DNA of 64,000 bases from Lachnospiraceae bacterium. Lineage in GTDB: Bacteria; Bacillota; Clostridia; Lachnospirales; Lachnospiraceae. A model generated the notes under the pieces. That model saw only the letters and a program-made list of their open reading frames with translations. It searched no databases and was not told the DNA's origin. Both the position numbers and the translations under genes were made by a program. Numbering within the stretch: position 1 is the first letter of the stretch; each line of letters starts with the position of its first letter. Positions 22,592 through 34,545 of this stretch are shown piece by piece. The stretch covers positions 55,114 through 119,113 of the forward strand of contig JAFQZU010000014.1 of assembly GCA_017405805.1 (NCBI GenBank), given 5' to 3'.

Positions 22592-22681
22592 TGAAAAGCA
22601 GGCATGAAAAACAGCGGCAGAGACAGCTCGCTCCTGCCATTTTTCCGGCCGTGCAGGTCATACACCGTGACCGCAGGCTGA

Positions 22682-22866
22682 CGGTATGCAGGCAGGTCTC
22701 CTGGCTCATGGCGCTCATATGGGTCTCCCTCCCTTCCCGGCGGCAATGCCGCCAGTGGATCACGGGGACCCGCCACTTACAGTTGCGGGACAGCACAGGA
22801 TTTGCACCTGTTTCCCTTTTCACCCCTCGCAGCGGAGGGACACCTGCAACCACTCGGTATGTCACA
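22682..22866 (-). promoter_or_regulatory. Cobalamin (B12) riboswitch
   Basis: On the minus strand the aptamer shows GGTTGCAGGTG, GGGTGAAAAGGGAA, the B12 box core GCAAATCCTGTGCTGTCCC, GCAACTGTAAG, then CACTGG and finally GAGCCAGGAGACCTGCC at 22707-22690. These blocks are in the order of the Rfam cobalamin family. Adenosylcobalamin or another cobalamin binding should switch off the operon from cbiK onward through the terminator at 22556-22591. Confidence 0.96.
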
Positions 22867-27124: not shown

Positions 27125-27571
27125 ATGGACCGATTCGAACGTTTCACCATCTCCATCTTCAACATCTCCCACTACTGGAACCGCATCGCTGCGGAAGAGA
27201 TGAAAAAGCATGATCTGAAGGGGACTTACGCTCTCTATCTTCTGACCCTGTACAGCGCGCAGGAAGAAAACGAGCGTATCACGGCTGCCCGCCTCGCTGA
27301 GCTCTGCCAGCGCGACAAGGCGGACGTCTCCCGGGCTGTCTCCATGCTGCAGAAACGCGGGATCATAGAGCCTTACGGGGCGAACCGGTACCGTGTACCG
27401 CTCATTCTGACGCCGCAGGGGCGGGAACTGGGCAGCCATCTGCGGCAGCGGGCCTCCCTGGCGCTGCAGACGGCGGGACAGGGGATCTCCGAGGAAATGC
27501 GGAGCAATATGTACCGCTGCCTGGACATCATCGCCCGCAACATGCGCAGCATCAGCGAAGAGGGCCTGTGA
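27125..27571 (+). CDS. MarR family transcriptional regulator
   Basis: A 148-aa winged-helix regulator. The recognition region ITAARLAELCQRDKADVSRAVSMLQKRGII is typical of MarR, followed by a wing (NRYRVPLILTPQGRELG) and dimerising helices at both ends. The AAGGAT site precedes the ATG. It ends 17 bp before the -35 of the Phe-leader promoter, so the paaK operon is a candidate target along with degV. Confidence 0.88.
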   Translation: MDRFERFTISIFNISHYWNRIAAEEMKKHDLKGTYALYLLTLYSAQEENERITAARLAELCQRDKADVSRAVSMLQKRGIIEPYGANRYRVPLILTPQGRELGSHLRQRASLALQTAGQGISEEMRSNMYRCLDIIARNMRSISEEGL

Positions 27572-27588: not shown

Positions 27589-27617
27589 TTGACATCAATG
27601 CGTTAAAGTGCTAATAT
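27589..27617 (+). promoter_or_regulatory. Promoter of the Phe-leader/paaK/ACT operon
   Basis: Perfect TTGACA at 27589-27594, 17-nt spacer, TAATAT at 27612-27617. The leader RNA would start near 27624 and run about 300 nt before paaK. Confidence 0.82.
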
Positions 27618-27693
27618 GCTCCATAGTTAATTTTTACGGTTTAACATTTACTAATCCGTTGTTTTTTGAAAGTTTTACAAAAGGATCTTTACA

Positions 27694-27786
27694 ATGAAAC
27701 GCAGCCCCTTCAACAACTACTTTTACTTCTTTAGCTTTACCTTTAGCTTTACTGACGAATCCAGTAAGGCCGGTTTGCTATGCTGA
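27694..27786 (+). CDS. Phe-rich leader peptide (30 aa)
   Basis: A 30-codon reading frame with an excellent ribosome-binding site (AAAAGGA, eight bases before the ATG). It opens MKRSPFNNYFYFFSFTFSF, so residues 6-19 hold seven Phe and two Tyr; it ends in TGA at 27784-27786. The pattern closely resembles the enterobacterial pheA leader peptide. A 9-bp hairpin at 27746-27770 overlaps the last Phe codons, and a strong terminator follows at 27822-27858. Together they form a classical ribosome-mediated attenuator that would sense charged tRNA-Phe. The peptide itself needs no function. Confidence 0.8.
   Translation: MKRSPFNNYFYFFSFTFSFTDESSKAGLLC
27746..27770 (+). promoter_or_regulatory. Attenuator pause/anti-antiterminator hairpin
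   Basis: GCTTTACTG pairs with CAGTAAGGC (one G-T) around a 7-nt loop. It begins within the last Phe codons of the leader. Just after it, CCGGTT (27770-27775) is complementary to AACCGG (27836-27841) in the loop and 3' arm of the terminator, a possible antiterminator pairing. Confidence 0.5.
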
Positions 27787-27821
27787 AGATGTGAAGGGCT
27801 GATCGAAAAATCGTTCGCATT

Positions 27822-27858
27822 GGGTGTGGCACATGAACCGGTGCCGCACCCTTTTTTT
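27822..27858 (+). terminator. Intrinsic terminator of the Phe attenuator
   Basis: GGGTGTGGCAC pairs with GTGCCGCACCC (11 bp, one G-T) around an 8-nt loop and is followed by seven T. It lies between the leader peptide and paaK in the sense direction, which only makes sense if it is conditional. Confidence 0.9.
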
Positions 27859-27870
27859 ATTGCACTGCGA

Positions 27871-27891
27871 AAAAAAAGCCCGCGTGCGGGC
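27871..27891. terminator. Second hairpin, likely acting against antisense transcription
   Basis: GCCCGC and GCGGGC form a tight hairpin at 27878-27891, preceded by a run of A. Read on the minus strand this is a hairpin followed by seven T, an intrinsic terminator pointing out of the paaK gene. On the plus strand there is no T run. Confidence 0.5.
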
Positions 27892-27925
27892 CAACATCTG
27901 ATTTAGAGGGAAAGGAGCAGCAACT

Positions 27926-29233
27926 ATGAAAAACTATTACCAGAAGGAGATCGAAACCGCCTCACGGGAAGAGATCCTGAAGATCCAGAACGAGAAGATC
28001 GTCAAGCAGGTCAGGCACGTTTACGACAACGTCCCCTACTACCGCGACCTCATGGACAAAAAGGGTGTGAAGCCGGAAGATATAAAGAGTGTAGACGATA
28101 TCAAAAAGCTTCCCTTCCTCACCAAGGACGACCTGCGCGAGGCGTATCCCTACGGCCTTCTCGGCACGGATCTGAAGAACTGCGTCCGCATACAGTCCAC
28201 CTCCGGCACCACCGGAAAGCGCGTCGTGGCCTTCTATACCCAGAAGGACATCGACCTGTGGGAGGAGTGCTGCGCGAGAGCGATCGTCGCCGCGGGCGGC
28301 ACCGATGAGGACGTCTGCCAGGTCTGCTACGGCTACGGCCTGTTCACCGGCGGCCCCGGCCTCAATGGCGGCTCCCACAAGGTCGGCTGCCTCACGCTGC
28401 CCATGTCTTCGGGCAATACCGACCGCCAGATCCAGTTCATGATGGACCTGAATGCCACCATCCTCTGCTGCACGCCTTCCTATGCCGCTTTCATCGGCGA
28501 GTCCCTCGCCGAGCAGGGATATAAGCCTGAGGACAACAAGCTCAAGGCCGGTATTTTCGGCGCCGAGCCCTGGACCGAGGAGATGCGCCGCTCCATCGAA
28601 AATAGCCTCGGCATTAAGGCATACGATATCTACGGCCTCACCGAGACCTCCGGCCCCGGCGTCTCCTTCGAGTGCGAGGAGCAGACCGGCATGCACATCA
28701 ACGAGGACCACTTCTACGCCGAGATCATCAATCCCGAGACCGGAGAGGTGCTCCCCGAAGGCGAGAAGGGCGAACTGGTCTTCACTTCCCTCGACAAGGA
28801 AGCATTCCCGCTCCTGCGCTACCGCACCAAGGATATCTGCATCCTGTCCCGCAAGCCCTGCTCCTGCGGCCGCACCCACGTCAAAATGACCAAGCCCCTT
28901 GGCAGAAGCGACGACATGATGATCATCCGCGGCGTCAATGTGTTCCCCAGCCAGATCGAGACCGTTCTCCTCAACGAGGGCTATACGCCCAACTACCAGA
29001 TCGTCGTCGACCGCGAGAACAACACGGATACTTTTGACGTCTACGTCGAGTTCTCCCCCGAACAGTTCTCCGATAAGATCGCGGACGTCCAGGCGCGCGA
29101 GAAGGCTCTCAACGCCGCCATGCGCTCCATGCTGGGCATCGGCCCCAAGATCCACCTCATGGCGCCCAAGTCCATCCAGCGCTCGGAGGGCAAGGCCGTG
29201 CGCGTCATCGACAAGAGAAAGCTGCACGACTGA
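27926..29233 (+). CDS. paaK: Phenylacetate-CoA ligase (PaaK-like)
   Basis: A 435-aa adenylate-forming ligase of the PaaK family, which makes aryl-acetyl-CoA from an arylacetate, ATP and CoA. The AMP/phosphate loop STSGTTGKR lies near residue 92, YGLTETSGPG is the adenine-binding motif, and LLRYRTKD and GRSDDMMIIRGVNVFPSQIE are PaaK hallmarks; the C-terminal KAVRVIDKR supplies the catalytic Lys region. In gut Clostridia such ligases usually sit with an ACT protein and indolepyruvate ferredoxin oxidoreductase. The ACT gene is here, iorAB is not. The Phe leader supports an aromatic amino-acid substrate. Confidence 0.9.
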   Translation: MKNYYQKEIETASREEILKIQNEKIVKQVRHVYDNVPYYRDLMDKKGVKPEDIKSVDDIKKLPFLTKDDLREAYPYGLLGTDLKNCVRIQSTSGTTGKRVVAFYTQKDIDLWEECCARAIVAAGGTDEDVCQVCYGYGLFTGGPGLNGGSHKVGCLTLPMSSGNTDRQIQFMMDLNATILCCTPSYAAFIGESLAEQGYKPEDNKLKAGIFGAEPWTEEMRRSIENSLGIKAYDIYGLTETSGPGVSFECEEQTGMHINEDHFYAEIINPETGEVLPEGEKGELVFTSLDKEAFPLLRYRTKDICILSRKPCSCGRTHVKMTKPLGRSDDMMIIRGVNVFPSQIETVLLNEGYTPNYQIVVDRENNTDTFDVYVEFSPEQFSDKIADVQAREKALNAAMRSMLGIGPKIHLMAPKSIQRSEGKAVRVIDKRKLHD

Positions 29234-29332
29234 GCCGGCAGGCATGCCTTTATGCGCTCAGTCCGCTTAGTTCGTTAATACGTGCGGCAGGCGCACTGCC
29301 GCGCGGACAATCCATCACAGGAGGTAACCATT

Positions 29333-29767
29333 ATGGCGATCACACAGTTATCCGCTTTTCTTGAAAACACACCGGGCACGCTCTCCCAGGCCGTCACGGC
29401 CATTTCCGACGCCGGCATCAACATCCGCGCGCTCTCCGTCGCGGACACCCGTGACTTCGGCATCCTTCGCGTCATCGTTTCCGACGTCGAAAAGACCAAG
29501 GAAGTCCTGAGCCAGTACACTCTTGCCAGCGAGACCAAGGTCATCGCTGTCAAAATGAGCGACGAGGCCGGCTCCCTCAAAAAGATCCTCAACATCCTGG
29601 AGAACGCCCGCATCAACGTGGAATACGTCTACGCCTTCACTTCCGCCATCGCAGGCTCTGCCTACGTGGTGCTTCGCATCAATGACCTGGACGTGGCGGA
29701 GTCCGTGCTCATGGGACACGGCATTGAGATGCTCTCCGATGAAGATATGAAGGATATGCTCGGGTAA
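29333..29767 (+). CDS. Tandem ACT-domain protein
   Basis: A 144-aa protein made of two ACT domains (about 1-70 and 71-144), the small ligand-binding fold that senses amino acids. Each begins with the usual ACT pattern: LSAFLENTPGTLSQAVTAIS and VKMSDEAGSLKKILNILE. A strong GGAGGT precedes the ATG. Located 99 bp after paaK in the same transcription unit, it probably senses an aromatic amino acid and modulates the pathway. No catalytic domain is attached. Confidence 0.9.
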   Translation: MAITQLSAFLENTPGTLSQAVTAISDAGINIRALSVADTRDFGILRVIVSDVEKTKEVLSQYTLASETKVIAVKMSDEAGSLKKILNILENARINVEYVYAFTSAIAGSAYVVLRINDLDVAESVLMGHGIEMLSDEDMKDMLG

Positions 29768-29780
29768 TCCAAATCCAGGC

Positions 29781-29917
29781 GCAGCCGGATATAAGCCTCC
29801 TGGCAAGGCGGAATTTCCTCGCCCATGTATAAGCACCTTGGACCGTCTGCACTTAAAGTCCTGCGGTGCTTATACATGGACTTGGTACCGCCTTGCCAGG
29901 AGGCTTATTTCGGCTGC
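29781..29917. repeat. Long imperfect inverted repeat, 137 bp
   Basis: The left arm (29781 to about 29843) and right arm (about 29858 to 29917) are near-complementary. Shared blocks are GCAGCCG, ATAAGCCTCCTGGCAAGGCGG and CATGTATAAGCACC, read inverted, with small internal loops. The right arm runs into GTTTTTGG. It lies between the ACT gene and the aminotransferase gene and can fold as one long hairpin, so it may end the upstream transcript. It could also be a miniature inverted-repeat element; no target-site duplication or second copy was seen. Confidence 0.85.
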
Positions 29918-34428: not shown

Positions 34429-34447
34429 ATCTGAACAAAACCATGAT

Positions 34448-34531
34448 GACTTCCTACGGCGGCATTATCCGCATCAGGTAAAGGGTCGAAGGTCTCACCT
34501 TCCTCTCAGCCTGTTCACAAGCTCCCCTGTT
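34448..34531 (-). promoter_or_regulatory. TPP (Thi-box) riboswitch
   Basis: Minus strand: ACAGGGGAGC, GGCTGAGAGGA, GACCCTTTACCTGAT and GGATAATGCC, ending near GTAGGAAG. All core blocks of the thiamine pyrophosphate aptamer are in order. TPP binding should repress thiSFGHE. Confidence 0.97.
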
Positions 34532-34545
34532 TTTTATGCACCATT

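Follow-up and report, generated by a model that had tools for sequence, protein, structure and literature searches.

Positions 27589-27860 of the window, that is, of the whole 64-kb stretch of DNA analysed here, very probably constitute a ribosome-mediated transcription attenuator which, as read from the sequence, would sense charged tRNA-Phe and control a paaK-ACT operon likely to raise the supply of phenylalanine. E. coli pheA is preceded by a leader peptide rich in Phe, by hairpins that exclude one another, and by an intrinsic terminator. In its layout, the leader of the window has the same parts and presumably the same signal, charged tRNA-Phe, but its target is an arylacetate-CoA ligase together with an ACT protein. 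A sequence-only reading of this DNA had already likened it to the E. coli layout; the likeness holds for the logic and does not extend to the sequence, as no Rfam family matches the leader.

All parts of the leader lie on the forward strand. The promoter (27589-27617) consists of TTGACA (6/6 consensus positions), a 17-nt spacer, and the -10 box TAATAT (4/6) with TG upstream, and with 10/12 matches it is good, though not the perfect promoter first described. The ribosome-binding site of the leader peptide, AAGGA at 27681-27685, is likewise moderate rather than strong; Shine-Dalgarno-like sequences also occur before the ORF in relatives, with AAGGAG or CAGGAG in 10 of the 19 aligned ones. The leader ORF (27694-27786) encodes a peptide of 30 residues, MKRSPFNNYFYFFSFTFSFTDESSKAGLLC, whose residues 6-19 (27709-27750) comprise seven Phe and two Tyr, exactly as first described. 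Also present are the hairpin predicted to overlap the Phe codons, the CCGGTT/AACCGG pair, and the terminator, and the fold of 27624-27868 has a z-score of -4.4. Aligning 20 leaders, 19 from the genus plus L036, yields four stems. In the outer 1:2 stem, segment 1 (TCTTTAGC, 27728-27735), located in the Phe codons, pairs with GCTGAAGA (27782-27789) over the stop codon. The inner hairpin CTTTACTG/CAGTAAGG (27747-27769) carries the last Phe codon in its 5' arm. Segment 2 (CCGGTT-TGCTATGC, 27770-27783) is the 5' half of the antiterminator, and its partner, segment 3 (27824-27841), is made up of GTGTGGCA at 27824-27831 and AACCGG at 27836-27841, within the 5' arm and loop of the terminator. The intrinsic terminator (27822-27858) has the stem 27822-27832/27841-27851 followed by T7. 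Across the alignment, segment 2 mostly reads GGTTRAT-T-TGCTATGC, segment 3 mostly GYGTGGCA-C-WTYAAC, and the terminator GGGTGTGGCAC/GTGCCRCACCC plus a T run. The upper part of the window's own antiterminator is in a shifted register, CCGGTT at 27770-27775 pairing with AACCGG at 27836-27841, so an in-register count scores three antiterminator pairs as broken. In several relatives, a palindromic repeat (AATGAGCCATG...CATGGCTCATT or similar) is found between terminator and paaK, for example at 1281-1500 of L007, 1280-1500 of L012, and 1285-1500 of L019.

Covariation is strong for the terminator and 1:2 stems and modest for the antiterminator. In the 20 leaders, 97.9% of the cells of the terminator and 1:2 stems are paired, compared with 34-48% for slid partners, and seven pairs are altered on both sides, a number reached by none of 500 shuffles; the further pair types were matched by 65 of 500. 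A larger set of 28 matches gave 97.5% paired cells and 10 pairs altered on both sides (0/500 shuffles), although its alignment was fitted to these same stems; it represents 27 distinct leaders, L128 being the window's own site, and omits the aroF leader L137 and the family hits L141-L146. For the antiterminator, 92.5% of cells are paired in the 20 leaders (25-49% slid) and 93.2% in the 28 (25-50% slid), and one position alternates between G-C (11) and A-U (8). Its changes on both sides and its further pair types are not distinct from shuffles in either set: two pairs in the 20 leaders (88/500 shuffles had as many; pair types 380/500), and three pairs with 14 further types in the 28 (30/500 and 36/500, respectively). 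An antiterminator and a terminator that are conserved and mutually exclusive, as expected of a leader-peptide attenuator, are therefore found in the aligned leaders. The earlier reading had proposed looking for a Phe-rich upstream ORF with covarying hairpins in the leaders of orthologous paaK-ACT operons, and had staked itself in part on finding a conserved small ORF with its Phe codons. Both the ORF and the codons are conserved there, along with the hairpins, whose covariation is clear for the terminator and 1:2 stems.

The proposed mechanism is that of a classical attenuator. With ample Phe, the ribosome would reach the stop codon at 27784-27786 and cover segment 2, and the terminator would form. 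With scarce Phe-tRNA, the ribosome would stall in the Phe run and mask segment 1; segment 3 would then be taken up by segment 2 while the 3' arm of the terminator is still to be transcribed, and RNA polymerase would enter paaK. Without translation, the 1:2 structure would form and transcription would stop. We infer translation of the leader, stalling, and read-through from these parts and from folding with ribosome masks, in which everything up to the front edge of the ribosome was kept unpaired and the nascent transcript ended in the terminator loop. In such in silico folds of the nascent transcript, the position of the ribosome selects between two folds. A ribosome placed on the Phe run gave a mean antiterminator pair probability of 0.51-0.99 in all 20 leaders; one placed at the stop codon gave 0 in all 20, by construction, as the mask covers segment 2. 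Without a ribosome, this probability was at most 0.19 in 17 leaders, and the antiterminator still formed in the other three (L008, 0.63; L017, 0.50; L019, 0.87). In the full transcript at equilibrium, the terminator prevails almost everywhere, the exceptions being L022 (0.76 antiterminator) and partly L010 (0.20) at a late stall, and thus the choice between the two structures must be kinetic. The stalled value of the window is the lowest of the 20, in part because the register shift goes uncounted and the helix is incomplete at that length. The modelled folds are consistent with classical attenuation operating as a kinetic switch.

Among 62 genus genomes, 42 of which have a paaK-like match, every one of the 20 near-complete paaK genes with 90% identity or more belongs to an operon headed by the leader, which lies directly upstream of paaK in 19 cases and before trpB2-paaK-ACT in one (G059). 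Model R1 found 25 sites in 23 of the 62 genomes, followed by paaK (20), trpB2-paaK-ACT (1), aroF-tyrA-aroB (1), or a sodium:solute symporter (1), the remaining two being cut by contig ends (G005, G054); it found no second leader in the window's own genome. Judged by Phe count, no leader of this type stands directly before paaK at 10 genus loci of 69-76% identity (L023-L032) or in 76 relatives of at most 88% identity (L037-L112), where L027, L094, and L112 offer less than 400 bases of upstream sequence; Phe-rich ORFs before paaK in L048, L067, and L068 were discarded by eye. With E up to 0.01 allowed, hits were obtained in 11 of the 299 genomes of the family: the own site, two paaK leaders (G114, G228), one trpB2 leader (G215), four aroF leaders (G178, G280, G290, G302), and three hits without an aromatic ORF (G105, G106, G357; E 0.003-0.01), which were rejected. 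The matches in G178 and G290 are equally weak by E-value and were retained for their aromatic ORF before aroF. A search of 392 genomes of the order with strict filters found the window's own site alone, and of 97 matched plasmid records none covered more than 80% of the query.

The first gene downstream of the leader, paaK (27926-29233, forward strand), encodes a putative AMP-forming arylacetate-CoA ligase of the PaaK type, 435 aa long. It matches TIGR02155 over the whole profile (E 8e-155), with 515.5 bits against an equivalog cut-off of 646.3, and solved PaaK structures with E 3.6e-125. The probable second gene of the operon (29327-29767, forward strand) encodes a double ACT domain protein (PF19571). 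Two double-ACT genes lie downstream of paaK in G114 (L160, 2070-2504 and 3420-3851, minus strand). Between the ACT gene of the window and the next gene, nested inverted repeats (24 nt, 96%; 15 nt, 100%) at 29788-29911 look like a small mobile or REP-type element.

As to function, PaaK would yield phenylacetyl-CoA, the indolepyruvate:ferredoxin oxidoreductase IOR, encoded elsewhere in the genome, would convert it to phenylpyruvate by reductive carboxylation, and a transaminase would then give Phe. The substrate and direction of the enzyme are presumed to be those of a synthetic step, and a role of the ACT protein in sensing Phe may be envisaged. The two enzymes go together: among the 62 genomes, paaK (at least 65% identity) and IOR alpha (E up to 1e-50) are both present in 34, paaK only in four, IOR only in two, and neither in 22 (Fisher p 1e-10, ignoring kinship and incomplete genomes). 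For the leader and IOR, the corresponding numbers are 21, two (leader only), 15 (IOR only), and 24. Moreover, iorA-iorB lies upstream of the orthologous paaK in 32 of the best 80 of 593 matched relatives, some stretches being short and a distant iorA hit of 38% in L044 being uncounted; in 30 of these 32 loci, the iorB hit starts less than 1 kb before paaK. The order iorA-iorB-paaK-ACT is also seen in G049 of the genus. In the own genome, iorAB and a second paaK are on contig C7, another contig than the leader. Before iorA, no leader of this type was detected in 32 loci (L051 has no upstream sequence and L110 only 33 bases), and aromatic-rich ORFs there in L048, L080, and L082 were discarded by eye.

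Related leaders on other operons carry different codons, given here as counts of Phe/Tyr/Trp. The paaK-ACT leaders have 5-7/0-2/0 in 19 cases, five Phe and one Trp in L036, and 7/0/0 in L160 and L161. Before trpB2-paaK-ACT the counts are 4/0/1 (L156) and 5/1/2 (L044), and before trpB2, where no paaK occurs within the stretch examined, 2/0/3 (L162). The aroF-pheA leaders have 10/2/0 (L164), 6/1/1 (L178), and 5/1/0 (L179), the terminators of L178 and L179 differing from those of other leaders. The aroF-tyrA-aroB leaders have 2/5/0 (L158), 4/5/0 (L163), 5/4/0 (L165), and 5/2/1 (L167), and an aroF-aroB leader, where tyrA was not seen, has 2/4/0 (L175). Trp codons go with trpB2, and Phe codons go with paaK or pheA; for Tyr codons and tyrA the match is mixed and only a tendency. 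The amino acid of the leader hence agrees well with the operon product for trpB2 and aroF-pheA and in part for aroF-tyrA, and for paaK-ACT the product would be Phe. The more distant leaders may share a common ancestry. Within the genus, a leader of this type was found at one of 30 trpB2 loci (L180), with less than 130 bases of upstream sequence at L182 and L186; chance ORFs before trpB2 in L183, L201, L202, L204, L206, L207, and L209 were discarded by eye. At aroF, four of seven genus loci have an aromatic leader (L173, L175, L178, L179), L177 has none, L174 has only 100 bases upstream, and the candidate in L176 was discarded by eye.

The strongest alternative accepts the attenuator as real and takes paaK-ACT to serve catabolism or fermentation of aromatic acids, with low Phe-tRNA acting as a general starvation signal; we consider it improbable. 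The name PaaK refers to catabolism, a catabolic or fermentative role is the usual reading of PaaK and IOR, and the own genome has its own prephenate dehydratase. Additionally, according to excerpts of a 2026 paper, an IOR of Bacteroides was shown to take part in phenylacetate formation from Phe (PMC13285125). However, related leaders head aroF-pheA, aroF-tyrA, and trpB2 genes, and a fermentation gene under this switch would be off at plentiful Phe, which is the wrong way round. The same excerpts describe acyl-CoA synthesis as the direction that AMP-forming ligases typically favour, argue that an IOR paired with a ligase of this kind may be biosynthetic, and leave the direction of PaaK/IOR in Bacteroides open (PMC13285125). 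Prephenate dehydratase occurs in 54 of the 62 genus genomes, the own genome included, so a phenylacetate route would add to the shikimate route. The evidence suggests that the paaK-ACT operon contributes to Phe synthesis from phenylacetate and not to the degradation of aromatic acids. The biosynthetic direction hinted at by the sequence-only reading gains support from the related leaders on aromatic amino acid operons and from the iorAB link.

A Phe-starvation switch before paaK would be independent evidence for the biosynthetic direction, and it points to genes for rumen Phe synthesis from phenylacetate. Synthesis of Phe from phenylacetate in rumen cultures is mentioned in a passage of PMC7356843, citing Allison 1965. 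To judge by their titles, several of the closest named relatives were obtained from ruminants (reindeer, red deer, goat rumen), and the host bacterium is probably from an animal gut. More broadly, the attenuators of these Clostridia could be one terminator/antiterminator core re-specified by swaps of Phe, Trp, and Tyr codons, which would mark PaaK-ACT, IOR, and TrpB2 as genes of the long-known rumen route from phenylacetate to Phe, perhaps also of a Trp synthesis that starts from indole or indoleacetate; the ACT protein would be a second sensor of Phe, acting by feedback. We hold this reading with evenly balanced confidence, lowered slightly because the Tyr match is mixed. The codon run of a leader may furthermore serve as a sequence-readable hint to the substrate of ambiguous genes. 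For example, a leader of this kind (L157, 749-949) precedes a sodium:solute symporter gene (PF00474; 1059-2426, running off the stretch), perhaps a transporter of Phe or phenylacetate.

The leader peptide itself is conserved in its Phe codons, with 5-7 Phe in the ORF of all 20 aligned leaders. Gaps within the aligned ORFs are multiples of three with a single exception, L004, in which the frame shifts after the Phe run and the RNA segment is kept. Codon positions 1, 2, and 3 differ 1314, 1579, and 1232 times in 5618 comparisons, so silent changes are not in excess and a generic coding signature is absent from these comparisons. The C-terminal part (SKV-LLC) is well conserved, which could indicate nascent-peptide arrest, the conserved C-terminus and not hungry Phe codons halting the ribosome. 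This is very unlikely, since the SKV-LLC codons are antiterminator segment 2 (TTTGCTATGC) and RNA pairing accounts for the conservation, and since L004 loses the C-terminal frame and retains the RNA. In the window, the leader ORF is alone among ORFs of 12-60 aa in having at least seven Phe per 14 residues; such an ORF appeared in none of 100 dinucleotide-shuffled windows and in 5 of 5000 shuffles of 27590-27930. An ordinary terminator of the upstream gene combined with a chance ORF is scarcely credible: a weakly MarR-like gene (PF12802, 25.4 bits against a cut-off of 27) does end at 27571, just upstream of the leader, but a promoter-like site separates the two, this gene accompanies the leader at one of 23 sites, the window's own (28 entries, five being second copies of the same site), and the ORF and stems are conserved, such an ORF being very improbable by chance.

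A ribosome-stalling Phe attenuator before a catabolic ligase had been called unexpected, given that Firmicutes mostly use T-boxes for this job. This part of the claim is weaker than it was put, as leader-peptide attenuators are already described in Firmicutes in two papers, before hisS/hisZ in bacilli, in place of a T-box (PMC2965389), and before ilv-leu in Staphylococcus aureus (PMC5794164). They resemble the leader of the window in being ribosome-mediated attenuation in Gram-positive bacteria and differ in amino acid and host, the leaders related to the window having Phe, Trp, or Tyr codons. By its description in PMC8632094, the uORFC-13-1 motif before aroF in Acholeplasma is similar in having an upstream ORF with Phe codon(s) and a terminator, whereas it belongs to other organisms and the target in the window is paaK. 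No report of a Phe leader before paaK was recognised in the open-licence PubMed Central literature searched. The mechanism is of a known kind; within that literature, what is new is paaK as its target, together with the group of related leaders whose codons differ.

T-box riboswitches (RF00230) share with such a leader an uncharged-tRNA input and a terminator output, but the leader of the window has no T-box match. No Rfam family reached its gathering score in the leader, the seven weak hits (E 0.29-9.4) being all far below cut-off. The Rfam family of the enterobacterial Phe leader gave no match, and among leader families only Trp_leader was hit, on the opposite strand and with 17.8 bits where the cut-off is 41. 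Two T-box matches in the own genome fall below gathering score (E 8.6e-18 and 7.8e-16), one just upstream of trpB2 and one upstream of trpD, both presumably reading UGG at the specifier. At gathering score, no T-box was found in 18 sources. At E up to 0.001, a match, always below gathering score, lies upstream of trpB2 in seven of seven leaderless loci scanned (L001, L181, L184, L187, L194, L195, L205), and both trpB2 loci that carry Trp-codon leaders (L180, L162) lack such a match; from these sequences, T-box and leader seem to replace one another at trpB2. With the same threshold, none was found in five paaK loci (L037, L039, L041, L044, L045), of which L044 has the trpB2 leader. Elsewhere in the window, a cobalamin riboswitch lies at 22674-22862 and a TPP riboswitch at 34434-34538, both on the minus strand, the latter near thiamin genes.
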